Source: Secundilactobacillus angelensis | Lineage (GTDB): Bacteria; Bacillota; Bacilli; Lactobacillales; Lactobacillaceae | Reading direction: 5' to 3' | Assembly (NCBI RefSeq): GCF_012641075.1 | Contig: NZ_JAAXLJ010000014.1 | Location: forward strand, 1-60,319 | DNA length: 60,319 bases | Shown here: piece by piece, positions 24,484 to 54,832 of the stretch | How positions within the stretch are numbered: position 1 is the first letter of the stretch | Layout of the letters: each line of letters opens with the position of its first letter | Notes under the pieces: generated by a model | Databases searched by the model: none | Told to the model about the DNA's origin: nothing | Seen by the model: only the letters and a program-made list of their open reading frames with translations | Position numbers and translations under genes: made by a program

Positions 24484-24492
24484 CAACGTATA

Positions 24493-24574
24493 TTAACTAG
24501 GGGCGCAAATTGCTGAGACGGTCGCGGACCGAACCCTTTGAACCTGTGAGCTAACCCTCGCGAAGGAAAGTTAA
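24493..24574 (+). promoter_or_regulatory. TPP riboswitch (THI element)
   Basis: The P1 arms TTAACT and AGTTAA close a region with the conserved blocks GGGGCGC, GCTGAGA and ACCCTTTGAACCTG, and the 3' CGAAGGAAAG. It is followed at once by an intrinsic terminator, so thiamine diphosphate binding should stop transcription before tenA. Confidence 0.95.
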
Positions 24575-24595
24575 CGTGTATGTTGCGATTAAACT

Positions 24596-28971: not shown

Positions 28972-29655
28972 ATGAAGAAGAAGCAAACTCTTGCACAACG
29001 GATCAATATTATGCGTGCAGCCGTAATGGGTGCTAACGATGGTATCGTGTCCGTTGCCGGCATCGTTATCGGTGTCGCCGGTGCTACAACAAGCAACTTT
29101 GCTATCTTTATTTCTGGTATTGCAGGAATGCTGGCCGGTACGGTGTCTATGGCGATGGGCGAATATGTTTCAGTCAACACGCAAAAGGATGCGCAGCGGC
29201 GAGCAGTCATGAATCAGAAAGAAGCACTGGCAGATAATTATGCTAACGAGTTCGATTTCGTCAAACAAAAGTATGTTGATGATGGCATCACACCAGAACT
29301 AGCTGAACAGGCTACTCACGAAATGATGGATCAAGATTCGTTGGTGACAACCGTTCGTGAACGTTATGGCTTTGATGTGGGTGAATATACGAGCCCATAC
29401 GCGGCAGCAATTGCTTCAATGATTTCGTTTCCTATTGGCTCCATTCTACCACTCTTGGCAATTACGATGTTACCGGTAGCCGTCCGAATTTGGGGTACTT
29501 TTTTAGCGGTTATCATCGGATTAGCGATCACCGGTTTTAGTGCTGCCACTCTGGGAAATGCCAAGCGTGGTAACGGGATGGTCAGAAACATTGTGTCTGG
29601 TGTGCTGACAATGGCGGTTACGTATGCCATTGGGACATTAATTGGTCATATCTAG
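28972..29655 (+). CDS. VIT1/CCC1-family transporter, copy 1
   Basis: 227 aa, five hydrophobic segments. It carries the family hallmark NDGIVSVAGIVIGVAGA in the first helix and MAMGEYVSVNTQKD after the second, followed by a cytoplasmic helical metal-binding loop rich in Glu/Asp, then three further helices. Members move Fe2+ or Mn2+ out of the cytosol; in bacteria this likely means metal efflux or detoxification. The SD region is AGAAGG, 9 nt upstream. It lies 12 nt before a paralogue, in one transcript. Confidence 0.9.
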   Translation: MKKKQTLAQRINIMRAAVMGANDGIVSVAGIVIGVAGATTSNFAIFISGIAGMLAGTVSMAMGEYVSVNTQKDAQRRAVMNQKEALADNYANEFDFVKQKYVDDGITPELAEQATHEMMDQDSLVTTVRERYGFDVGEYTSPYAAAIASMISFPIGSILPLLAITMLPVAVRIWGTFLAVIIGLAITGFSAATLGNAKRGNGMVRNIVSGVLTMAVTYAIGTLIGHI

Positions 29656-29667
29656 GGAGGACTTTCA

Positions 29668-30375
29668 ATGAGTGAGATACTTATCAAACAAAAAAGGAAA
29701 AAGTCTACCCAAACGATGGATGAAAAATTAAATACTTTGCGCGCGGGTGTGCTAGGCTCCAATGATGGCATTCTAACGGTGGTTGGTGTGCTGTTCAGTG
29801 TTGCCGTAGCCACTCCCAATCAATTTACTATTTTTATCGCTGGGCTGTCAGATTTACTAGCCTGCGCCTTTTCCATGGCCTCTGGTGAATATGCATCAGT
29901 CAGTACCCAAAAAGATACGGAGGAATCAACGGTTCGTACAGAAAGACGCTTATTGAAGACGGACTATCAAGCAGAAGTTCAAGCTGTGATCAATCACTAT
30001 ACTGACCGTGGTGTCACCGTGGCAACGGCGACCAAGATTGCCGATGAATTAATGGCGAAGAAACCGTTGGAAACGGTGGTTAACGTGAAGTACGACCTCA
30101 CTTTAAATCATTATATGAATCCGTGGAACGCGGCATTTTCATCAATGTTCTCAGCGGGTGCAGGTGGTATTTTCCCATTACTGGCCATGACACTGTCGCC
30201 AGTGGCGATTCAATGGCCAGTCACTATTTTAGCGGTCTGTGTTTCGGTTGGGATTACCGGTTTTCTCAGCGCCAAGTTAGGCAATGGTTTGGTTAGGACA
30301 GCAATTATTCGAAACATTATTGTGGGGATCATTACGATGATTATTCACTATGGTGTGGGATTGCTTTTGAAATGA
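29668..30375 (+). CDS. VIT1/CCC1-family transporter, copy 2
   Basis: 235 aa, paralogous to the gene just upstream. Matching motifs are SNDGILTVVGVLFSVA and MASGEYASVSTQKD, with the same five-helix plan. The Met of MAMGEY is replaced by Ser here (MASGEY), and the cytosolic loop differs. This suggests either a different metal preference or a heteromeric transporter with copy 1. Start ATG with GGGAGG 8 nt upstream. A hairpin terminator follows. Confidence 0.9.
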   Translation: MSEILIKQKRKKSTQTMDEKLNTLRAGVLGSNDGILTVVGVLFSVAVATPNQFTIFIAGLSDLLACAFSMASGEYASVSTQKDTEESTVRTERRLLKTDYQAEVQAVINHYTDRGVTVATATKIADELMAKKPLETVVNVKYDLTLNHYMNPWNAAFSSMFSAGAGGIFPLLAMTLSPVAIQWPVTILAVCVSVGITGFLSAKLGNGLVRTAIIRNIIVGIITMIIHYGVGLLLK

Positions 30376-30585: not shown

Positions 30586-30630
30586 TGAATGGTCTATACT
30601 ACTCATGCGATTAACTGGAGGGTACTGGGT

Positions 30631-32076
30631 TTGAAAAAAATAGGTCAACTAAGTAAGTTCAGCCCAGTGACTACTGCGGTTGTGGCTTGCGCGCTGATTG
30701 TGGGATGGCTGATCTTTATGGCACCCATTCACGGCTATTCCGATAACGGCGATTTTCAATATTTAATGGCGACCAATGACATTTACAGCTTGCACCAAGC
30801 AAAGGCTGGGTACGTCGTGCAACACTATGGATTGATGAAATACTACAACCCAATTCATCTGGATCATTTAACGGCGCAATCGGTGGTCATTCAGATTGCG
30901 GTGGGTTTGAATCGGCTATTTAATAGCCAAACTCAATTTGACATTCGTTTCCTCGGCATGGTTTACTACTCACTTTATTTAGGAGGCGTGGGTGTTTTAG
31001 TGAAGGGCTTAGTAGGGACTGGTAGAAAGTTCCGGCATTATTTAATGACCATGATCATTGTTTTATTTGTAGCAGATTCGTCTTTTACGCTGTACTTTAA
31101 TTCTTTTTACCCTCAGGCACTAACCTTCATACTGTTACTTTATCTAGTCGGTTTTGCGCTGTTAATTATCCATTACAGAGCTGAAAACAAATGGTTGGTA
31201 GTCGGCTTTTATTTAGCGGCCATTCTATTGCTGATGGTGCATGAGTCAACTAGTTTGCTAATTGTTGGCATTTTAATAATGAGTATGAGCATTTTGCTTT
31301 TACCAGGTCGGCAGTGGATCCACGGGTCGGTTGCTGTCATTACTGTTGCCTTGCTTTTTGGCTGTTGGGTTTCTGCTAACAATATAACACCGGAAGTGCG
31401 GGCAATGAACAAGTATCAAGCCGTGACGCAGGGGAAATTATTAGCGACCAGTCAGCCGGAGGAAATTGCAAAAACGAGTCACATTGATGAGCAGTTTGCG
31501 TTAATGAAAGGTCAGAGCTACTATCCAACGGCTTATACTGCTGTAAAACCAGATGCTGATTATACACAGCAGCATTTTAGTCGGCATTACGACCTATCTT
31601 GGTTGATTCGTGAATACACAGCTTATCCACAGCAGTTCAATCTCTTACTGGATAAGTCAGCCAAGAACACAATGATATTAAGACCAAAATTAACTGGTAC
31701 TCAGGAGAAAACTGCGGGTAATAAACCGTTTCAGACCACGCATTATTTTTCGCTATTTAGCTATGTAGCCGGTACCTACTATCCCAAGACATATGGGTTT
31801 AACTGTTTGTTGGCGTTTGCCATCTTGGTGATTTACGGCAGTGGTTTACTTCATGGCTTAAAACAGACGAATCAAACGGTGAGGTATCATTTTTGGCTAG
31901 TTTTAGGCTTATTGTCAGTTGTTGTTTTGGTACCGCCTGCCGTAATCGTACTGTACGGAACCGCTAACTTTGTGACTCATACGCTGCCAGTGGCAGTTTG
32001 CTTGTCGTTGACCGGGCTGATTTTAATGAGCGATGTCTTACAGCATCGATTATGGAGGAATCAAGATGTGGCGTAA
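30631..32076 (+). CDS. Multi-TM membrane protein of the exopolysaccharide operon (PssA-like position)
   Basis: 481 aa with about 10-11 TM helices. After the first helix comes a conserved-looking acidic extracellular segment (HGYSDNGDFQYLMATND), reminiscent of GT-C type glycosyltransferases with a catalytic Asp in the first outer loop. An outer domain at about residues 250-370 precedes the last helices. The start is TTG 30631, with GGAGG 8 nt upstream; the frame upstream of it lacks an SD. It is the first of five overlapping genes. Function could be decoration of the polymer from a lipid-linked sugar donor, which fits the fold but is inference. Confidence 0.8.
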   Translation: MKKIGQLSKFSPVTTAVVACALIVGWLIFMAPIHGYSDNGDFQYLMATNDIYSLHQAKAGYVVQHYGLMKYYNPIHLDHLTAQSVVIQIAVGLNRLFNSQTQFDIRFLGMVYYSLYLGGVGVLVKGLVGTGRKFRHYLMTMIIVLFVADSSFTLYFNSFYPQALTFILLLYLVGFALLIIHYRAENKWLVVGFYLAAILLLMVHESTSLLIVGILIMSMSILLLPGRQWIHGSVAVITVALLFGCWVSANNITPEVRAMNKYQAVTQGKLLATSQPEEIAKTSHIDEQFALMKGQSYYPTAYTAVKPDADYTQQHFSRHYDLSWLIREYTAYPQQFNLLLDKSAKNTMILRPKLTGTQEKTAGNKPFQTTHYFSLFSYVAGTYYPKTYGFNCLLAFAILVIYGSGLLHGLKQTNQTVRYHFWLVLGLLSVVVLVPPAVIVLYGTANFVTHTLPVAVCLSLTGLILMSDVLQHRLWRNQDVA

Positions 32077-33670
32077 GGGTTATCTTTGGGGATTTTTGCT
32101 TATCATATTACTACTTCTCGGTGTTAAGCAATCCACTATTCAGGCAGAAGCAGCTGATCAGCGCCCCGTAATGCTGGTTTATGATTCAAAAAACATTGCT
32201 GAACACGGTGATTTGGATTTGGACTGCTGTCAACGATTGTTGACTAGTCTGGGTTTACCGGTGAAGACGGTTCAGCTGAGTCAGTATCATGCCCATTTAT
32301 TGGAGACTAGTCACTGTCAAGGTGTGATTACGATGGTCAACTGGGCGCAAGTAAATAGTCGTAACCAAGCATTTGAACGAGATAGAGCGCGTTTTACGGG
32401 TGTTAAACTGCACATTGGATCTGGGCTTCAGACGGATGAACGTAAAAGTTTAGGCGGCCATTTTAAAACCCTGGTACATCAGCAACTTAAAGTACACCAG
32501 GGGCAGGCAAACCAACTTCTTTCAACCAACAAGACTTTGCTGGTGAATGATAAACGTGCTGGCAACGCAATGTCGGTTGGCTGGTTGACCAATCAAAATA
32601 TGCCGGCAGAGTCATACTCGTATGGCGTGAAGGTCGGTAATGCTGGCTTTTTACCGGAGATTGGAACAGATGGCGTATCGATAAATCTTGCTGGCCAATT
32701 AATTGCCAAATTATTCAAACTTGATCGTCAACCGCAGTTACCCTTGCTAACAATTACCGGTGTCACACCCTATACAAAAATGAATCACTTAAAACACCTG
32801 ATCGATTGTTTGTCGTCACAGGGTTATCCGTTTGCGCTTAGTATCGTAAGTGTTGAAAGCAATACTGATCTGGCTGCGTTTCATCGGTACACTAAAATCC
32901 TCAGATATGCAGAAAAAAGTGGCGGGGTTATTTTTTTGAGCCCCTCTACTGAAACTGGCACGCAGCGATTAAATGAAGCTCAGTTAAGGTCGGTTTTTCA
33001 AACTGAACTTGCCAGTCTGGGTGCCGACCGAGTATTACCGATAGGAGTCAGTGCCCCTGGATATTGGAATCGTTCACAGCGAAGACAAGCCGCAGTTCTA
33101 AGTCCTGCTTCCCATGTGCTCTTGCGACCTGATACTCATCTAAAACTAGAAGAAAAACCAGTTGAAGCTGAACCTGTAGTCACTAATAGTCAAGTATTTC
33201 CAACAAGTATTGTTGGGATACCTTTTGATGCATTTGAAACCGCCACTTACCAGAATAAAATTCAGTTTTTCCAATCAACGGCCTTACTCGTTAAGATGCC
33301 AGCTGACACTACTGAAATCAATCGACTGATGCAACGGCTGCAGGGGAGCAAACTGCGGTGGTTTGATCCTGTTCGAGATCAGTTAGAGACATCACTGAAA
33401 ATTGGCACAGTTTCATATGAATACCAAGCAGGCCAATATTTAGTGAATCATCAGGTTGTGTTCGATTTAGATGCTGACATAGAAAATTTCGCTACTGATG
33501 CCAAGCCAGCTGAATCTGATTCTTGGATGAACCGGGTGATTCAGTGGCAGTCGCATGCGCTATTATGGCTCTTTGCTGGCATTGGGCTTGTGTTAACAGG
33601 GTTGTTAGTGTTGGGTTGGCGAATTTATAGACGTAAATTTATCCGTAATAGTGGACAGAAAAAGGGGTGA
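32066..33670 (+). CDS. Membrane-anchored extracellular protein, polysaccharide deacetylase/hydrolase-like (PssB-like position)
   Basis: 534 aa with an N-terminal signal/TM segment and a C-terminal TM helix (residues about 500-522) followed by a basic tail, so the bulk is outside the cell. The middle region (LLTITGVTPYTKMNHLKHLID ... GYPFALSIV ... SGGVIFLSPS) resembles the TIM-barrel of DUF2334/NodB-like proteins. However, the expected metal-binding Asp-Asp and HxxxH are absent. It starts at ATG 32066, with GGAGGA 6 nt upstream, inside the end of the previous gene. It probably modifies, trims or scaffolds the secreted glycan. Moderate certainty on position, low on activity. Confidence 0.72.
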   Translation: MWRKGYLWGFLLIILLLLGVKQSTIQAEAADQRPVMLVYDSKNIAEHGDLDLDCCQRLLTSLGLPVKTVQLSQYHAHLLETSHCQGVITMVNWAQVNSRNQAFERDRARFTGVKLHIGSGLQTDERKSLGGHFKTLVHQQLKVHQGQANQLLSTNKTLLVNDKRAGNAMSVGWLTNQNMPAESYSYGVKVGNAGFLPEIGTDGVSINLAGQLIAKLFKLDRQPQLPLLTITGVTPYTKMNHLKHLIDCLSSQGYPFALSIVSVESNTDLAAFHRYTKILRYAEKSGGVIFLSPSTETGTQRLNEAQLRSVFQTELASLGADRVLPIGVSAPGYWNRSQRRQAAVLSPASHVLLRPDTHLKLEEKPVEAEPVVTNSQVFPTSIVGIPFDAFETATYQNKIQFFQSTALLVKMPADTTEINRLMQRLQGSKLRWFDPVRDQLETSLKIGTVSYEYQAGQYLVNHQVVFDLDADIENFATDAKPAESDSWMNRVIQWQSHALLWLFAGIGLVLTGLLVLGWRIYRRKFIRNSGQKKG

Positions 33671-34920
33671 TTCATATTTTAAACAGCTTATTGTTTATCG
33701 CGATAATTGCAATTTGGAGCATCCTAATCGTTAATTTAATTCTCACGATTGCTGGTTATTTCTACTATTTAAAATGGCAGCGAACAGATACACCAACGCT
33801 ACCTTCAACGGTGCCATTTGTTTCTATCTTGGTTCCCGCGCATAACGAGGCCCGCGTCCTGGAGAAAACAGTTCAAGCCTTACTCAGGTTTGATTATCCG
33901 GCAGAACGGTACGAATTGATTGTTATTAATGATAATTCTGATGATGATTCCGCAGCTGTCCTCGCTAGACTGCAGTTCGGCTACCAAGAGCGAAACTTTC
34001 ACATCATCAATACCGATGCTCAAACAGGGGGCAAGGGTAAGTCCAATGCCTTGAACATTGGTCTTAAGAAAGCTAAAGGATCCGTTATTTCAGTTTACGA
34101 TGCTGATAACACACCTGAGTCTGGTGCGCTGCGACATCTCGTGGCGACGTTAATGCAAAATCCTGATTTAGGAGCCGTGATTGGTAAATTTCGGACCCGA
34201 AACCGGAATGCGACAATGCTCACCCGATTTATTAACATCGAAACGTTGGCTTTTCAGTGGATGGCGCAAGCGGGCCGGCAGCAATTGCTAAGGCTTTGCA
34301 CCATTCCGGGGACTAACTATGTGATTCATCGCAGTGTGCTTGAGCAAATCGGTGGCTGGGATGTGAAGGCACTGGCTGAAGATACCGAAATCAGTTTCCA
34401 AGTTTATCGGCAGGGTAAACGAATTGGGTTCCAGCCACTAGCAGTCACCTGGGAACAGGAACCGCAAACTTTCGATGTGTGGTTTCATCAGCGCACCCGG
34501 TGGGTTAAAGGAAATATCTATGTTGTTTTAAAAAATTTAAACTTACTCTTTCAGACTGAAGCCAAGGTGATCTGGTTTGACCTGCTTTACTTCATGAGTA
34601 CGTACTTTCTGCTGATGTTTGCGCTGGTTTTTTCAGATGTGATGTTTGTTTTATCTGTCGCTGATCTGGTGCATATTACGTTACGGGATTACAGCGGTAC
34701 GGTCTGGTTAGTGGCAATTCTATTGTTTATTTTGAGCACGTTTGTGGCAATTACAACGGAAAAAGGTGAAATGACTATCGATAATTTAGGCATCATTAGT
34801 TTGATGTACTTTATTTATAGTCAGATGTGGTTAGCAGTGGCAATCTATGGAATGGTGGGATATATTCGTGAACAAATTTTTCATCAACAAGCCAGATGGT
34901 ATAAAACAAAACGTTATTAA
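33667..34920 (+). CDS. GT2 processive polysaccharide synthase (BcsA/PgaC/PssC-like)
   Basis: 417 aa. One N-terminal TM helix, a family 2 glycosyltransferase domain and about four C-terminal helices. All catalytic motifs are seen: substrate-binding Asp in VINDNSDD, DxD as DAD (145-147), the base-donating motif as AED (237-239), and QRTRW (275-279). It should polymerise a beta-linked polysaccharide from a UDP-sugar and extrude it. No PilZ domain follows, so c-di-GMP cannot act on it directly, unlike BcsA. The GTG start overlaps the previous stop (GTGA). The neighbours point to a synthase complex with the BcsB-like and GGDEF-like proteins. Confidence 0.9.
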   Translation: MIHILNSLLFIAIIAIWSILIVNLILTIAGYFYYLKWQRTDTPTLPSTVPFVSILVPAHNEARVLEKTVQALLRFDYPAERYELIVINDNSDDDSAAVLARLQFGYQERNFHIINTDAQTGGKGKSNALNIGLKKAKGSVISVYDADNTPESGALRHLVATLMQNPDLGAVIGKFRTRNRNATMLTRFINIETLAFQWMAQAGRQQLLRLCTIPGTNYVIHRSVLEQIGGWDVKALAEDTEISFQVYRQGKRIGFQPLAVTWEQEPQTFDVWFHQRTRWVKGNIYVVLKNLNLLFQTEAKVIWFDLLYFMSTYFLLMFALVFSDVMFVLSVADLVHITLRDYSGTVWLVAILLFILSTFVAITTEKGEMTIDNLGIISLMYFIYSQMWLAVAIYGMVGYIREQIFHQQARWYKTKRY

Positions 34921-36958
34921 TGGCAGTTTAGTTGTACTGACATTAATACTGCTACTTTTCAGTGGCAGCGAGAAGGCAGCCGCAAAGCAGTACACGCAGC
35001 CGTTTCAAAACAACACAACTTCATTATCGGGTAAGGCAGTTCAGTCAAATATGTACTTTGTCAAAATGGGCTATTGGAATGTGAAACAAGCAACCTTGAA
35101 TCTTAACTTTCAAGTTTCCCAGTTAAATGATCGGCAAATCTCCGACATTACCGTGACAGTTAATGACGTCACTTTCTATTCGTTTCGGCCGACTGCTACA
35201 AAGGGCATCCAGTCAAAACAAATTCAGATTCCAACCAAGCTGATTAAATCTCAAAATAATTTGCAGGTGGAGGGACAGTTGCTTAATCAAAATGCCAAGA
35301 CGATTCAAACGCCCGCAAACTGGTTAACGGTTAACGACACCAGCAACGTTAATTTTGATTACAACATTCAAAAACCAACAAAGCAGATCAACGATTTTTA
35401 CGGTCACATGACTGGGGCGGATACCATTGCTGAGAATCAGTCGGTGGTGGAAACACCGATTCAGGCAACGGATGCGGAGTTAACAGCCAGTTTACGGGCA
35501 TTGACGGGGATGACCCGCTTTGTGACATCTGAAGACCGCGAGTTGCCCATTAAGCCCCTGGGTAATGGTAAGCATGCCGATTTTAGAATGGTGATTGCTA
35601 AGTATGAACATTTACCTCGGGATTTACAGGCGAAACTGTCAGAATCAAGATTGTCTGATCACGCGGTTATTCAGGTGATCAAGTCGGGCCAACAGTCGAT
35701 CATGGTGGTCACTTCCCAATCTGACGAATTATTGGAGAAGGCAGCCCAATTTGTTGCTAATGAAGAACTTATGAGGGAAACGGACCGATCAACTAAATGG
35801 ATCAGTGCGCAAACCGATACTTTCACGTCGGTACTGCAATTCCAGGGACGTCAGCCATTATTGGAAAAAGACGCCCATGTTCAGGGAGCTGGTCATCACG
35901 TCAAGACGTTTTTTGTCCAGTTGCCCAACGATCATATGAACGCGGCGGGATCGACCATCAACTTGCGAATGCGCTACGCTAAAAACTTAGATTTTAAACG
36001 GTCATTAGTGACGATTAAAGTGAACGGTCAAGCTATTGGTAGTCAACGATTAAGTAGTCAACAAGCGAACGATGATACGTTGCGAGTGAAACTACCAGCT
36101 AATTTGCCGTTGAATAGTACTTTTACCGTGCAAGCTGATTTTGATTTGATTCTTCCTGGAGAAGGTCAATCTAAGCCAGACCAAAACGCATGGGCGTCCG
36201 TGCTAGCTGATTCCTACGCGGTTATTAAATCAAAACAGTATCAAGATTTACTTTTTGATAACTATCCCAGCTTATTTATGAAAGGCCAAGCTGTTCACAA
36301 GTTAGCGTTGGTACGACCTAGCCGATTATCCGAAAATGACTTTCAGACCATGACTAATTTATTTGGTCTCATCGGTAATTACGCTAAGCAAAATACGGGT
36401 GAATTCGAAGTTTATCATGACAAACCCAGTTCAGCTGAGTTGACGCAATCCAATATCGTTACTTTTGGGACACCCGCAACGACGCCGCTGATTAAGCAGT
36501 TGAATCATTACCTGTACTTTAAATATAACTCAGACTTCTCCGGGTTTAAAAGCAATGAAAAGTTAAGTTTAGAAGACCAATATGCCAAACGAATTGGCAC
36601 GGCACAGCTATTGCGATCGCCATTCAATCAGCACCACGGTCTTTTAGTTGTCACGGGTGCTCATGATGATGCCGTTACCAGAGCTTCGACTCAGCTTAAT
36701 CGGCAAGTAAAATTAGAGCAGTATCGCAAAGCGGATGCCATTGTTGTGGATGATAATAATCAGCATTATAGTTACCGGTTTAAGAAACAAAAGTTATTGA
36801 AAGATCAGGCCTTGAGCATTGGCTTTCAGCAACATGGTCATTTTTGGCTGTATATGGGACTGTCATTACTGGCGGTCGTATTCTTTGGTTTCGTGGTGAC
36901 TTCAATCTTATGGCGTAATGGTTTATTGAAACGAAAGGGGAATTGGCATGAACGTTGA
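34868..36958 (+). CDS. BcsB-like polysaccharide synthase partner (PssD-like)
   Basis: About 696 aa. Signal-anchor near the N-terminus, a long extracellular part and a single C-terminal TM helix (FWLYMGLSLLAVVFFGFVVTSILW). It begins with a BcsB-type beta-sandwich (GYWNVKQATLNLNF, ITVTVNDVTFYSF) and contains a second one near residue 370 (STINLRMRYAKNLDF, VTIKVNGQAIGSQRL). The GTG at 34868 with a GGTGG site is preferred; the ATG at 34847 is an alternative. Either way it overlaps the GT2 gene by more than 50 nt, which is unusual and implies tight coupling. It should guide the nascent glycan across the envelope. Confidence 0.85.
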   Translation: MNKFFINKPDGIKQNVINGSLVVLTLILLLFSGSEKAAAKQYTQPFQNNTTSLSGKAVQSNMYFVKMGYWNVKQATLNLNFQVSQLNDRQISDITVTVNDVTFYSFRPTATKGIQSKQIQIPTKLIKSQNNLQVEGQLLNQNAKTIQTPANWLTVNDTSNVNFDYNIQKPTKQINDFYGHMTGADTIAENQSVVETPIQATDAELTASLRALTGMTRFVTSEDRELPIKPLGNGKHADFRMVIAKYEHLPRDLQAKLSESRLSDHAVIQVIKSGQQSIMVVTSQSDELLEKAAQFVANEELMRETDRSTKWISAQTDTFTSVLQFQGRQPLLEKDAHVQGAGHHVKTFFVQLPNDHMNAAGSTINLRMRYAKNLDFKRSLVTIKVNGQAIGSQRLSSQQANDDTLRVKLPANLPLNSTFTVQADFDLILPGEGQSKPDQNAWASVLADSYAVIKSKQYQDLLFDNYPSLFMKGQAVHKLALVRPSRLSENDFQTMTNLFGLIGNYAKQNTGEFEVYHDKPSSAELTQSNIVTFGTPATTPLIKQLNHYLYFKYNSDFSGFKSNEKLSLEDQYAKRIGTAQLLRSPFNQHHGLLVVTGAHDDAVTRASTQLNRQVKLEQYRKADAIVVDDNNQHYSYRFKKQKLLKDQALSIGFQQHGHFWLYMGLSLLAVVFFGFVVTSILWRNGLLKRKGNWHER

Positions 36959-37805
36959 TGATCGTGGTCGGGCTAGCTTACAAGCAGACATTGGCTTGGT
37001 TGTTTTTATCACTCTGGTTAGTTTGACGGCTATTTTAGTCGGTATTTCAGCCAATCTGATCTGGAATCTGATTTATCTGGGGATCACATTAGTGGTGATG
37101 TTAATTACCTACTTTTATGGGCTGATCCCAGGAATGCTAAGCAATTTACTCTTTATCTTTTGCCAAGTTGTTTCAACCGCATACATTAACGTTTCTCTGC
37201 ATCAAACAATCCCGTTGAAAATGGCTTTTTGGTTGATCTTACCCGGATTGCTGAGTGGTGCATTGGCGGTGATGACCAGTAAACAGCAGCTGCTGCAACT
37301 GGACAATCATAAGCTCCGTAACCAACTCACGGAGCGAGGTGCTTTTGATGTTCAGACTAACTTACGCACATTAGTGGCGTTCTCCACGGATGCGAGAGTG
37401 TATATTGAAAATCATCGTCGCTTTCATTTGCCAGTCACAATGCTCGTGTTCCGAATTCGGTATTATCAGGAGCTGCAACGGATGCTGAGCGAGGAACAGA
37501 ATCGAATGTTGCTGCGCGTGATTTCGGATACTTTAACGACGGTGGCAGCCGACAATGATCTGTCTTATTTTCTGGATCCAGAAAAGCCAACTTGGGGAAT
37601 GATTCTCCATTCCGATGAAGGACAAGCACAACAAATCGTTGACCAAATTAAGCAGCGTTTTTGCCAGGAATTGCAAAGTCATGAGCAGTTGAAACAACTG
37701 GATACCTCATTGACTGCTGGCATGGCGAGTTGGAACACATCAACTATGGACAGTCCCTATGATTTAATGAAGCAAAGCATTCGGGAAACAGAGTATGATG
37801 TTTAG
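36948..37805 (+). CDS. Membrane protein with degenerate GGDEF-like domain (PssE-like putative c-di-GMP receptor)
   Basis: 285 aa. Three to four TM helices (residues about 14-110), a short coiled linker (KQQLLQLDNHKLRNQL), then a domain whose pattern follows GGDEF proteins (RFHLPVTMLVFRIRYYQEL ... RVISDTL ... AGMASW). The catalytic GGDEF is replaced by LDPEKPTW (about 209-216) and the I-site Arg is missing, so it cannot make c-di-GMP. In Listeria a degenerate GGDEF protein in the same place of the pss operon has been proposed as the c-di-GMP receptor; the same job is inferred here. ATG with AAAGGGG 7 nt upstream, overlapping the previous gene by 11 nt. Confidence 0.78.
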   Translation: MNVDDRGRASLQADIGLVVFITLVSLTAILVGISANLIWNLIYLGITLVVMLITYFYGLIPGMLSNLLFIFCQVVSTAYINVSLHQTIPLKMAFWLILPGLLSGALAVMTSKQQLLQLDNHKLRNQLTERGAFDVQTNLRTLVAFSTDARVYIENHRRFHLPVTMLVFRIRYYQELQRMLSEEQNRMLLRVISDTLTTVAADNDLSYFLDPEKPTWGMILHSDEGQAQQIVDQIKQRFCQELQSHEQLKQLDTSLTAGMASWNTSTMDSPYDLMKQSIRETEYDV

Positions 37806-37834
37806 TCTGAACTTGACTATTGTTATCTGAAATC

Positions 37835-37875
37835 AAAAATCACGTTCAAGTCGTTGGGGACTGAACGTGATTTTT
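37835..37875. terminator. Terminator of the exopolysaccharide operon
   Basis: AAAAATCACGTTCAAGTC against GACTGAACGTGATTTTT, a 17-bp stem with one bulge; works in both directions. Confidence 0.85.
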
Positions 37876-37891
37876 GTGTGTTATGCATGGC

Positions 37892-39298
37892 TTAATTCTC
37901 TTGATCTTCCTTTTCATAACCTGGCGCAGTAAACCGCGGCATGGTTCTACCAGCAGTCGCTTCTTTATCAACGGCCAGCTGGGCAACTTGATTCAGATAG
38001 TTAAAGGGATAGTCAAAGTTAGGTTGGAACAGCATATCGACAAATGCTAAATCATCAATGGTGTTGTTATTTTGGATGGCGATTGAGACCGCATTTGCTG
38101 ATTGGGTAATGTCGTGTTTGCTGAGCAACTGCGCTCCTAGAACACGACGGGTAGTCTTCTCATAGACCAGCACGATGACCAGGCGATCGGTGGAAGGCAT
38201 ATAGTCTGGCCGCCATGTTCCATCAAAGGTGACGCTATCTGCATCAATGCCGCGCTTAAGTGCATGCGTCAGTGTGAGACCAGTGGTTGCTAATGCGTTA
38301 CCGTAGATTTTTAGAGCTGAACTAGCCTGTGTGCCAACGTAAGGATGGGTGTGTGCAAAAATATTATGAGCGACCAACGTTCCTTGCCGGATGGCGACAC
38401 TTGCCAGTGGTGTGTAAGCCGATGAACCCGTTGGATTAAACCGCACCATGCAACAGTCACCAGCCGCGTAAATATCGGGATCCGACGTTTGTAGAAAGCG
38501 GTTCGTTAAAAATGAGCCGTGTCGTTCAATTTTGACTTGTCCTGATAATAGTGAAGTATTAGGAGTAAAACCGGTGCTGACGATTGCCATATCGGTCTTA
38601 AAATCGCCTTGGTTAGTTTCAATCGTAATCTGGTCAGTGTTATCATCACCGGTAAAGGCACTAACTTGCGTGTCTAAATGAACGTCCACATGATGTTCCT
38701 TTAATAGTTTAACTGCCCAATTGGACATACTGTCGTCGACATAGTTGTTCAAGACTTGAGAGCGAGCTTGAAAAACACTCACATGATGACCGGTTCCGGA
38801 AAGTGCTTCAGCAAATTCCACGCCGGAGTAACCAGCTCCAATAATGGCGATGTTGTGATATTCTTTGGACGCTTTATAGATGGCTTGGGCCTGCTGATAG
38901 TTCTTGCATAATAGAACCCGAGTGTTATCGATACCATAAAGAGGGGGGACCTTAACGGATGAGCCGGTAGTCATGATTAATTTATCATAAGTATCCTCGA
39001 AAACTTCTCCAGTTTCCATATTAGCAACTTGGATAGTATGTGCCTTGGCGTCAACCTTAAGGACATCGTGTCTGTCATGGACGGTCGCACCCATGTCTCT
39101 AAGTTCCTGGGGTGAAGAATAGAACATATCTTCAAGTTGTTTGACTTCACCCTCAAGATAAAGGGAAATGCCACAGGAGAGAAAAGAAAAGTTATCGGTG
39201 CGTTCATAAATCGTGAGGTCAGTTTCTGGATGGGTCTTCATAATTTCCGTTGCGGCAACTGTACCAGCATGAGTACAACCAATGATAATGACTTTCAT
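37892..39298 (-). CDS. FAD-dependent NADH oxidase-like flavoprotein (Nox/CoADR family)
   Basis: 468 aa. FAD-binding N-terminus VIIIGCTHAGT, the single redox-active Cys in SFLSCGISLYL (near residue 42), an NAD-binding fold (IAIIGAGYSGVEFAEAL), and the late FAD-contact block DIYAAGDCC. It belongs to the family of water-forming NADH oxidases and CoA-disulfide reductases; in lactobacilli NADH oxidase is the usual role, regenerating NAD+ with O2. Monocistronic on the minus strand, between the exopolysaccharide operon and the EAL gene, with no apparent link to either. Confidence 0.9.
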   Translation of the reverse strand: MKVIIIGCTHAGTVAATEIMKTHPETDLTIYERTDNFSFLSCGISLYLEGEVKQLEDMFYSSPQELRDMGATVHDRHDVLKVDAKAHTIQVANMETGEVFEDTYDKLIMTTGSSVKVPPLYGIDNTRVLLCKNYQQAQAIYKASKEYHNIAIIGAGYSGVEFAEALSGTGHHVSVFQARSQVLNNYVDDSMSNWAVKLLKEHHVDVHLDTQVSAFTGDDNTDQITIETNQGDFKTDMAIVSTGFTPNTSLLSGQVKIERHGSFLTNRFLQTSDPDIYAAGDCCMVRFNPTGSSAYTPLASVAIRQGTLVAHNIFAHTHPYVGTQASSALKIYGNALATTGLTLTHALKRGIDADSVTFDGTWRPDYMPSTDRLVIVLVYEKTTRRVLGAQLLSKHDITQSANAVSIAIQNNNTIDDLAFVDMLFQPNFDYPFNYLNQVAQLAVDKEATAGRTMPRFTAPGYEKEDQEN

Positions 39299-39420
39299 AC
39301 TTACAAACCCTCATTTCGTATACAAATTAGTGAATACTATCAGAATTTTAATGAATCCATAAAAAAGTATTTTATAAATGATATAATCAGACTTGAAAAT
39401 AACCTTAGGGAGGAAACGTC

Positions 39421-40092
39421 GTGTACAGGTACTTTATCCAACCACAATTGAATAAATTTACTAATTCATTGATTGGCTACGAAATGTTAATTCGTAAGTA
39501 CGATGATGAACACTGGCGTCTCCCGCAAAACTTTGCTGCCATTCCAGTGGATGAACAGATTGATTTATTGAAGAAAACTGCCCATCGAATTGGCTTGAAA
39601 GTTGGTTCTATTTCCTTTAATCTCAATCGGCGTCGGTTCATAGATCCCCACATGGAGGAAGCCTTGATTGGCGTCCAAAGTGAAATTTTCCCGGTTAAAT
39701 TGATTATAGAGGTAACCGAGGAAGAAAGCGACCTGCAGGAACAAGTTCCCGATGAAAAAATTGCATTGAGTGCTAAACGCTATGCGGGAAAAGGTGTTCA
39801 GATTAGTTTAGACGATGTTGGGAGTGGTTGCAATACTTACGAACACATTAAACCACTCTTAGCATATGCGAATGAAATCAAATTTGCCATGCAGAACTTT
39901 CGTAACGAAAATAAAGAAAGCAAAATTGTTAGTCAACTCAAATTCTGGAAAATGATTGCCGATAAGTATCAGATTAGATTAGTGGTTGAAGGAACCGAGA
40001 CTGAAGAAGAGGACCAATTACTGGATGATCTAGATTTACCTTATCGGCAAGGTTACTTTTATGGTAGACCACATCTTGTTAAATTGGAATAG
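39421..40092 (+). CDS. EAL-only c-di-GMP phosphodiesterase
   Basis: 223 aa, little more than a bare EAL domain without TM or sensor. The signature reads EML instead of EAL (Glu21). The key residues are in place: Asn67, Glu97 in IIEVTE, Asp131-Asp132 in LDDVGSG, Lys154, Glu190 in VVEGTETE, and Gln210 in RQGYFYGRP. It should therefore hydrolyse c-di-GMP to pGpG. The start is GTG 39421 with GGGAGG 7 nt upstream. Its closeness to the pss-like operon suggests it lowers the signal that activates that exopolysaccharide. No diguanylate cyclase is in the window. Confidence 0.88.
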   Translation: MYRYFIQPQLNKFTNSLIGYEMLIRKYDDEHWRLPQNFAAIPVDEQIDLLKKTAHRIGLKVGSISFNLNRRRFIDPHMEEALIGVQSEIFPVKLIIEVTEEESDLQEQVPDEKIALSAKRYAGKGVQISLDDVGSGCNTYEHIKPLLAYANEIKFAMQNFRNENKESKIVSQLKFWKMIADKYQIRLVVEGTETEEEDQLLDDLDLPYRQGYFYGRPHLVKLE

Positions 40093-54540: not shown

Positions 54541-54832
54541 AAAAAGCGTCCTTAATCGCAATCTGGTTGCGATTAAGGACGCTTTCACGTGGTACCACCT
54601 TAGTTTATAATCTCATTACTGAAATTACCTTTCACGTACAGCATAAATGCGATACGTTTGGCACGATAATGGGTGCTCCCAATGTGTTCTACTACGACTG
54701 AGTCGATTCGGCACACAGCTCGGAGATGATCATTACCACCATTCGTCATTGCCTTTCACCGACCGGCAACTCTCTATATCCGAAATGACGTTAATGTTTC
54801 TCGTCAGCGCTTTTCATCTGAATTTAATGATT
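54541..54832 (-). promoter_or_regulatory. T-box leader, specifier read as ATC (Ile), with terminator
   Basis: On the minus strand AGGTGGTACCACG is followed by a 17-bp terminator stem (AGCGTCCTTAATCGCAA and complement, 54545-54583) and T's. Stem I runs GAGAGTTGCC ... ATCTCCGAGC. Alignment on the GAGC places ATC (54730-54728) at the specifier: isoleucine. The terminator/antiterminator controls the hydratase transcript. Confidence 0.85.

Follow-up and report, generated by a model that had tools for sequence, protein, structure and literature searches.

Introduction

Does a Pss-type exopolysaccharide synthase still answer to cyclic diguanosine monophosphate (c-di-GMP) when the subunit expected to bind this nucleotide has lost its pocket? 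The question is raised by a five-gene pss locus of Secundilactobacillus angelensis (genome of 2.61 Mb in 139 contigs, with the pss locus on contig 46), which we analyzed within a 60,319-nucleotide stretch of DNA (NZ_JAAXLJ010000014.1, positions 1 to 60,319 of the forward strand), referred to here as a whole as the window. In Listeria and Bacillus subtilis, the degenerate GGDEF proteins PssE and YdaK are reported to be receptors that bind c-di-GMP and are needed for synthesis (PMC4125290, PMC5422440), and a preliminary description of the window had taken the locus for the lactobacillar counterpart of Listeria pssA-E, with a surface polymer switched by c-di-GMP. As set out below, the kinship with the Listeria operon is clear, and the predicted switch is made doubtful by a PssE whose c-di-GMP pocket is broken.

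Results

The locus consists of five open reading frames (ORFs) on the + strand that overlap end to start and span 30589-37805, a set of overlapping genes borne out by both the ORF list and the profile matches; its first ORF begins at 30589 and not, as previously given, at 30631. The pssA-like gene (30589..32076) is predicted to encode a multi-transmembrane (TM) hexose transferase of the WsfD type (NF051875; 331.3 bits against a cut-off of 80, expectation value E = 8.8e-99) that probably adds a side-branch sugar, the pssB-like gene (32033..33670) a secreted or anchored protein related weakly to DUF2334 (E = 0.027), the pssC-like gene (33667..34920) a candidate processive glycosyltransferase family 2 (GT2) polysaccharide synthase (PF13641, Glyco_tranf_2_3; E = 6.8e-32), the pssD-like gene (34847..36958) a BcsB-type extracytoplasmic subunit (PF03170; E = 4.4e-35), and the pssE-like gene (36948..37805) a 285-residue protein with TM helices and a degenerate GGDEF domain (PF00990). 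The BcsB-like and degenerate GGDEF assignments had been made before and stand, as do the GT2 motifs DAD, AED, and QRTRW, which are invariant in 21 PssC rows (the T of QRTRW nearly so). At the position of the GGDEF motif, the aligned PssE reads DPEKPTW, and the domain scores 22.9 bits in the protein, just below the cut-off of 23.8, and 24.2 bits in the genome search. When searched with profiles made from lactobacillar sequences, PssA-E of Listeria marthii (L155) score 471, 235, 711, 592, and 230 bits, a clear homology to Pss and Bcs components that upholds the locus as the lactobacillar counterpart of Listeria pssA-E (lmo0527-0531); the same five genes stand in the same order in four Listeria loci with profile homology (L155, L166, L167, and L171). 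Judged by gene content and homology, this is a complete Pss-type exopolysaccharide synthase operon.

Four PssE residues, R158, R201, D204, and R233 in the numbering of the window protein, very probably form a complete I-site, with R201 and D204 as the primary RxxD, R158 as the secondary-site arginine, and R233 as the third arginine, because two comparisons agree: profile alignment to solved GGDEF domains places positions 201 and 204 on the RxxD motif and 233 on the arginine of 'ERIR', and the spacing 158-201-204-233 matches that of R163-R206-D209-R237 in DgcR within one residue. In DgcR, R163, R206, and D209 are reported as c-di-GMP ligands and R237 as the equivalent of PleD R390 (PMC8041772). 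The window PssE itself has R158, A201, D204, and Q233, that is, two of the four ligands are replaced; the codons of residues 201-204, formerly RxxD and now AxxD, lie at 37548..37559 on the + strand (computed from the ORF start at 36948), and the alignment around the former motif is ungapped. RxxD is present in 115 of the 134 rows of a first full PssE alignment and absent in 18, with one row truncated. R158 and R233 are found in 106/106 distinct PssE rows with RxxD from the Firmicutes sampled; R201 and D204 were the selection criterion for this set, and the conservation of R158 and R233 is independent of it. Rows were dropped if truncated (L157), if pssE was cut or beyond the contig end (L066 and L069), or if near-identical, which means identical rows in the 106-row comparison and 97% clusters in the GGDEF comparison below.

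The loss extends to the whole clade of the window. Listed in the order window, L075, L065, L058, L064, L074, and L079, residue 201 is A, A, A, A, R, A, and Q; residue 204 is D, D, N, N, N, Q, and D; residue 233 is Q, Q, Q, Q, R, Q, and K; and residue 158 is R, R, R, R, Q, R, and Q. At least two of the four I-site residues are lost in 7/7 sequences, and this, together with the pocket broken by A201 and Q233 in the window, speaks against the predicted c-di-GMP switch. D14, W95, T137, Y207, Y283, D284, and V285 are kept in 7/7 clade rows. Nine columns are at least 97% conserved among intact PssE sequences, and only the four of the I-site change in at least two of the groups that have lost it (R201, D204, and R233 define the intact set, so that this conservation is partly by construction). 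The loss probably arose within the genus, because L053, from the same genus and with the same gene neighborhood, keeps the I-site intact, L053 being a weak control with split or shortened pssB and pssD ORFs. An AlphaFold2 model of the window PssE (predicted local distance difference test, 90.8; predicted template modeling score, 0.65) has GGDEF proteins as its best structural matches, several of them c-di-GMP-bound, including 5euh at 2.2 Å over 154 alignment columns.

The gene that carries the broken pocket is nevertheless maintained. Between L065 and L058, a pair without synonymous saturation (synonymous sites in most other pairs are saturated or nearly so), the ratio of nonsynonymous to synonymous substitution rates (dN/dS) ranges from 0.047 to 0.128 over the five pss genes, with values of 0.047 for pssE, 0.055 for pssC, and 0.110 for pssD, and it is 0.053 for the neighboring NADH oxidase gene. 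Low dN/dS speaks against pseudogene decay of pssE; on this measure, PssE is under purifying selection.

BcsB profile matches occur in 58 of the 301 Lactobacillaceae genomes sampled and in 16 of 40 genera, and the 58 Lactobacillaceae loci compared come from 57 genomes besides that of the window, one of them with two copies. All five pss genes are recognized in 52 of these loci, and five others stop at a contig end; in L092, pssA was not recognized, and some loci have split ORFs. Among named genomes, a scan with the GT2 alignment gave the full five-gene set in 76 of the best 80 loci listed, and genomes with pss include Paenibacillus, Cohnella, Enterococcus, Vagococcus, Listeria, Acetobacterium, and Clostridium. 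The nearest named relatives of the window GT2 among the matches listed are Secundilactobacillus yichangensis (86%) and S. hailunensis (83%), the PssE of both clustering with that of same-genus genomes. Gene order is A-B-C-D-E in lactobacilli, enterococci, Listeria, Paenibacillus, Cohnella, and Acetobacterium, and A-E-B-C-D in Clostridium, Ruminiclostridium, Lacrimispora, and similar loci, as well as in one metagenome bin labelled Paenibacillaceae. One enterococcal-family genome has ~1.8 kb between pssC and pssD, possibly an insertion (L204:3096-4891).

We compared the state of the I-site (intact meaning R201, D204, and R233) with the presence in the same genome of a strong GGDEF match (E < 1e-10). 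GGDEF domains were searched in the 301-genome sample and in 34 further genomes (24 + 10), and the states, compiled by hand from these searches, cover 77 of 121 PssE clusters. The I-site is intact in 0/13 clusters whose genomes lack a strong GGDEF match and in 56/64 whose genomes have one (Fisher p = 1.1e-9, a value that ignores relatedness). Seven of the eight exceptions, in which a strong GGDEF match goes with a lost site, are the window clade; every remaining Lactobacillaceae PssE from a strong-GGDEF genome has RxxD.

Genomes that lack the enzymes tell the same story from the other side. Of 58 Lactobacillaceae with BcsB, two have no strong GGDEF match (G017, with a weak match only, and G283, with none), and both have lost the I-site and have zero EAL matches. 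Enterococcus moraviensis, E. rivorum, and three Ligilactobacillus genomes likewise combine a lost I-site with no GGDEF match. Within the E. moraviensis family, the PssE profile matches 12 of 105 genomes, nine of which have full-length PssE in a total of ten copies; the I-site is absent from all copies, and a GGDEF match is found in 0/9. The other three genomes were left out, G396 for a partial match (it has no GGDEF) and G388 and G333 for weak ones, that of G333 overlapping the genome's own GGDEF match. All five pss genes are present in eight of the nine enterococcal-family loci without a GGDEF match (L131, L136, and L200-L206); in the ninth, L204, pssA would fall outside the stretch examined. 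E. rivorum (G302) also carries a second, orphan PssE-like gene (L207:1964-2812), with no other pss gene recognized within 10 kb. Overall, this distribution agrees with an I-site that is important only to producers of c-di-GMP and with an operon able to persist after losing the site. The window clade is the odd case, with the enzymes kept and the site broken.

The absence of a diguanylate cyclase from the S. angelensis genome is excluded by sequence: three proteins have an intact GGEEF motif and a full domain, with 113-118 bits in the genome search. A PilZ receptor was ruled out as a candidate, no genome match being found at E <= 1, and no c-di-GMP riboswitch reached the gathering score in the window, the only part of the genome scanned. 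An EAL gene (39421..40092, + strand; PF00563, E = 9.5e-18) starts 1616 bases past the end of pssE, in agreement with the 1.6 kb reported before, and no second EAL match is found in the genome at E <= 0.001. The usual EAL residues (E-LIR, FNLN, EVTE, DD, K, VEG-E, QGY), which we take to be catalytic, are kept in 12/12 aligned genus copies (the best copy from each of 12 genomes, the more remote matches of two further genomes being set aside), and with these residues present the protein is a predicted c-di-GMP phosphodiesterase.

Between the two lies a gene of the NADH oxidase/coenzyme A (CoA)-disulfide-reductase family (37892..39298, - strand; NF046103, 383.6 bits, below the cut-off of 600), whose transcription runs toward pssE and away from the EAL gene; because this convergent gene separates them, the EAL gene stands outside the pss operon. 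The EAL-NADH oxidase pair is independent of pss, since it is kept in G115 and G221, Secundilactobacillus genomes without the operon, and its persistence there makes the nearness of the EAL gene weaker evidence for c-di-GMP switching. EAL and NADH oxidase genes stand side by side near pss in at least 10 of the 58 Lactobacillaceae loci (a lower bound, since the stretches are short), in several genera and in divergent or co-directional arrangement; loci with the pair are the window (37892-40092), L040, L053, L058, L064, L065, L074, L075, L078, L079, and L088, and also L209 and L211. In genus g21, a more distant EAL gene is found just past pssE (L089:9912-10760, L091:3929-4786, and L068:10215-11066), on the same strand and within 90 bases of pssE in L089 and L091, like a sixth operon gene, and on the opposite strand in L068. 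The link between EAL and pss is real as a neighborhood and is no proof of function; a connection of c-di-GMP turnover to redox through the EAL-NADH oxidase pair is possible.

Other identities were considered for the individual subunits. Of the earlier picture of PssB as a secreted deacetylase-like protein, the weak DUF2334 relation survives (PssB of Listeria marthii matches DUF2334 with 29.7 bits), and the activity does not: an active deacetylase was set aside, and PssB is probably without deacetylase activity, because a 14-row family alignment holds no invariant Asp or His. PssC was rejected as a poly-N-acetylglucosamine (PNAG) synthase of the PgaC/IcaA kind (PgaC_IcaA, 173.6 bits against a cut-off of 422.3) and as a bacterial cellulose synthase (CelA, 86.1 bits against 699.1; PssC has no C-terminal PilZ domain). 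Pss/Yda polymers are of the N-acetylmannosamine (ManNAc) type with galactose branches, and the one match in the genome to a wecB-family UDP-N-acetylglucosamine 2-epimerase (528.8 bits) could be a source of UDP-ManNAc. A c-di-GMP residue of the GT2's own was also rejected: R222 of Escherichia coli PgaC, reported to be such a residue (PMC10333796), aligns with PssC Gln205 in a variable column. PssC position 221, which aligns with PgaC R238, is His in the window and Arg in 4/7 clade rows, and R221 is the sole one of 105 conserved PssC columns changed in three I-site-lost groups.

Elsewhere in the window, a thiamine pyrophosphate (TPP) riboswitch (24489-24585, + strand) and a T-box leader (54572-54816, - strand) score above the Rfam gathering score. 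Upstream of the operon, 28972-30375 encodes two tandem similar small membrane proteins, which we presume to resemble the VIT1/CCC1 metal transporter family. Promoter and terminator scans (21 against a shuffled mean of 22.1 and 11 against 8.9, respectively) were near chance and were not used.

Discussion

Our best reading is that this locus should not be filed as an I-site c-di-GMP receptor system and that its PssE is an uncoupled receptor subunit. We lean toward a PssE that acts as a ligand-free activator or scaffold, and toward a synthase no longer coupled to c-di-GMP although the genome retains the genes for c-di-GMP enzymes; homology, the loss of pocket residues, purifying selection, and the presence of the enzyme genes are read directly from the sequence. 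For the subunit roles, the activity of synthase and enzymes, the independence from c-di-GMP, and the nature of the polymer, we infer the following scheme. PssC would polymerize the sugar and pass the polymer through the membrane, the BcsB-like PssD would guide it outside, PssA would add a hexose branch, and PssB would be an extracytoplasmic accessory. PssE would be the membrane partner that permits synthesis, its pocket dismantled and the rest of it conserved, and the synthase would be controlled by expression or substrate supply instead of c-di-GMP, which would be made by the three GGEEF proteins, degraded by the EAL protein, and used for another output.

Several observations weigh against such an uncoupling. 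The association between I-site and GGDEF enzymes rests on few events (four I-site changes and three GGDEF-trait changes on a 72-row PssC tree), an independent-pairs sign test with three or four pairs cannot reach significance, and Vagococcus allomyrinae has two GGDEF matches, yet its I-site is lost. The PssE match is missing from five of the 15 genus genomes, and the genus may be in the course of losing the operon. The pocket itself is not erased everywhere: R158 and D204 are still present in the window, as are R201 and R233 in S. folii (L064). A DgcR mutant with RxxD changed to AxxA is reported to retain weak binding (PMC8041772), RxxD-independent sites are described in some GGDEF domains (PMC10333796), and residual binding through R158 and D204 is possible. 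Finally, YdaK R202A gives no polymer (PMC5422440), so that inactivity of the synthase can be predicted just as directly as constitutive activity.

The alternative that survives best, one that we nonetheless think improbable, is that PssE still senses c-di-GMP, via R158 and D204 or an RxxD-independent site, and that the synthase is switched. It would explain why three intact-GGEEF proteins and an EAL protein with its usual residues are retained, why PssE is conserved, and why an EAL gene lies near pss in 17 of the 58 Lactobacillaceae loci (those of the clade and some in other genera). It has to contend with A201 and Q233, which take away two of the four ligands, with a site that varies freely in the clade, unlike a ligand site in use, and with the report that a single alanine change at the YdaK RxxD, R202A or D205A, suffices to abolish polymer production in B. 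subtilis (PMC5422440). Window A201 is the counterpart of R202A, a correspondence drawn through the RxxD motif and not through an alignment of YdaK itself.

Less probable still is a silent or decaying locus, in which PssE, for want of c-di-GMP binding, would leave PssC inactive and the cell without polymer. The YdaK R202A phenotype and the genus genomes without a PssE match point that way; all five window pss genes are open, however, and their dN/dS values are low in the L065-L058 pair. Dead synthases are also hard to accept because enterococci and Ligilactobacillus keep the operon without a detectable GGDEF enzyme, with the five genes present in eight of nine enterococcal-family genomes. We assign a similarly small chance to a clade PssE that still gates this synthase but has been retuned to another signal (another nucleotide, redox via the NADH oxidase, or a protein partner). 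That the EAL protein is the receptor, binding c-di-GMP and touching PssE or PssC as a trigger enzyme, seems very unlikely: the host genome and five of six clade relatives have no other EAL match (the sixth, G162, has three), the order PssE-NADH oxidase-EAL is conserved, and trigger phosphodiesterases are a known class (PMC5052742), but the EAL-NADH oxidase pair persists in the pss-less G115 and G221 and also adjoins pss in L053, where the I-site is intact.

In the open-licence literature, to which the search was limited, we found no description of a PssE without an I-site, and one may exist elsewhere. Both the Pss/Yda operons and their dependence on c-di-GMP are already known, YdaL, YdaM, and YdaN presumably corresponding to PssB, PssC, and PssD. 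For staphylococcal Ica, which makes PNAG, we know of no BcsB or degenerate GGDEF subunit. Ica is described as a Gram-positive GT2 synthase independent of c-di-GMP, unlike E. coli PgaCD (PMC10333796), and shares this independence with the uncoupled synthase proposed here. Listeria, like the host genome, is reported to have three GGDEF-type cyclases and one degenerate GGDEF protein, but its PssE has RxxD and binds c-di-GMP with a dissociation constant of 0.79 uM, whereas the window PssE has AxxD and Gln233, and it has three EAL proteins, against one EAL match in the host genome (PMC4125290). The exopolysaccharide operon ydaJKLMN of B. subtilis also requires a degenerate GGDEF partner, in this case one that needs R202 and D205 (PMC5422440), whereas the window PssE has alanine at the R202 position. 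The earlier remark that c-di-GMP control of exopolysaccharide is little described in lactobacilli is fair, with the qualification that gtsA-gtsB-pdeB of Lactobacillus acidophilus, also a c-di-GMP-linked GT2 polysaccharide operon, has been published; its receptor is a degenerate EAL protein, and the three genes as described there include none for BcsB, WsfD, or DUF2334 proteins (PMC6123363).

Gating by c-di-GMP is what the Pss synthase family is known for, and lineages that keep the gate protein with an erased pocket separate the sensing function of PssE from its role in enabling the synthase. The clade sequences are natural variants for studying how PssE switches PssC, and the four variable columns suggest a sequence test for which Pss operons still answer to c-di-GMP; a domain annotation that equates a degenerate GGDEF with a receptor would misjudge such operons. 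For Secundilactobacillus, in which three putative cyclases and a single putative phosphodiesterase occur and a PilZ protein was not found, the question raised is what other role c-di-GMP plays.

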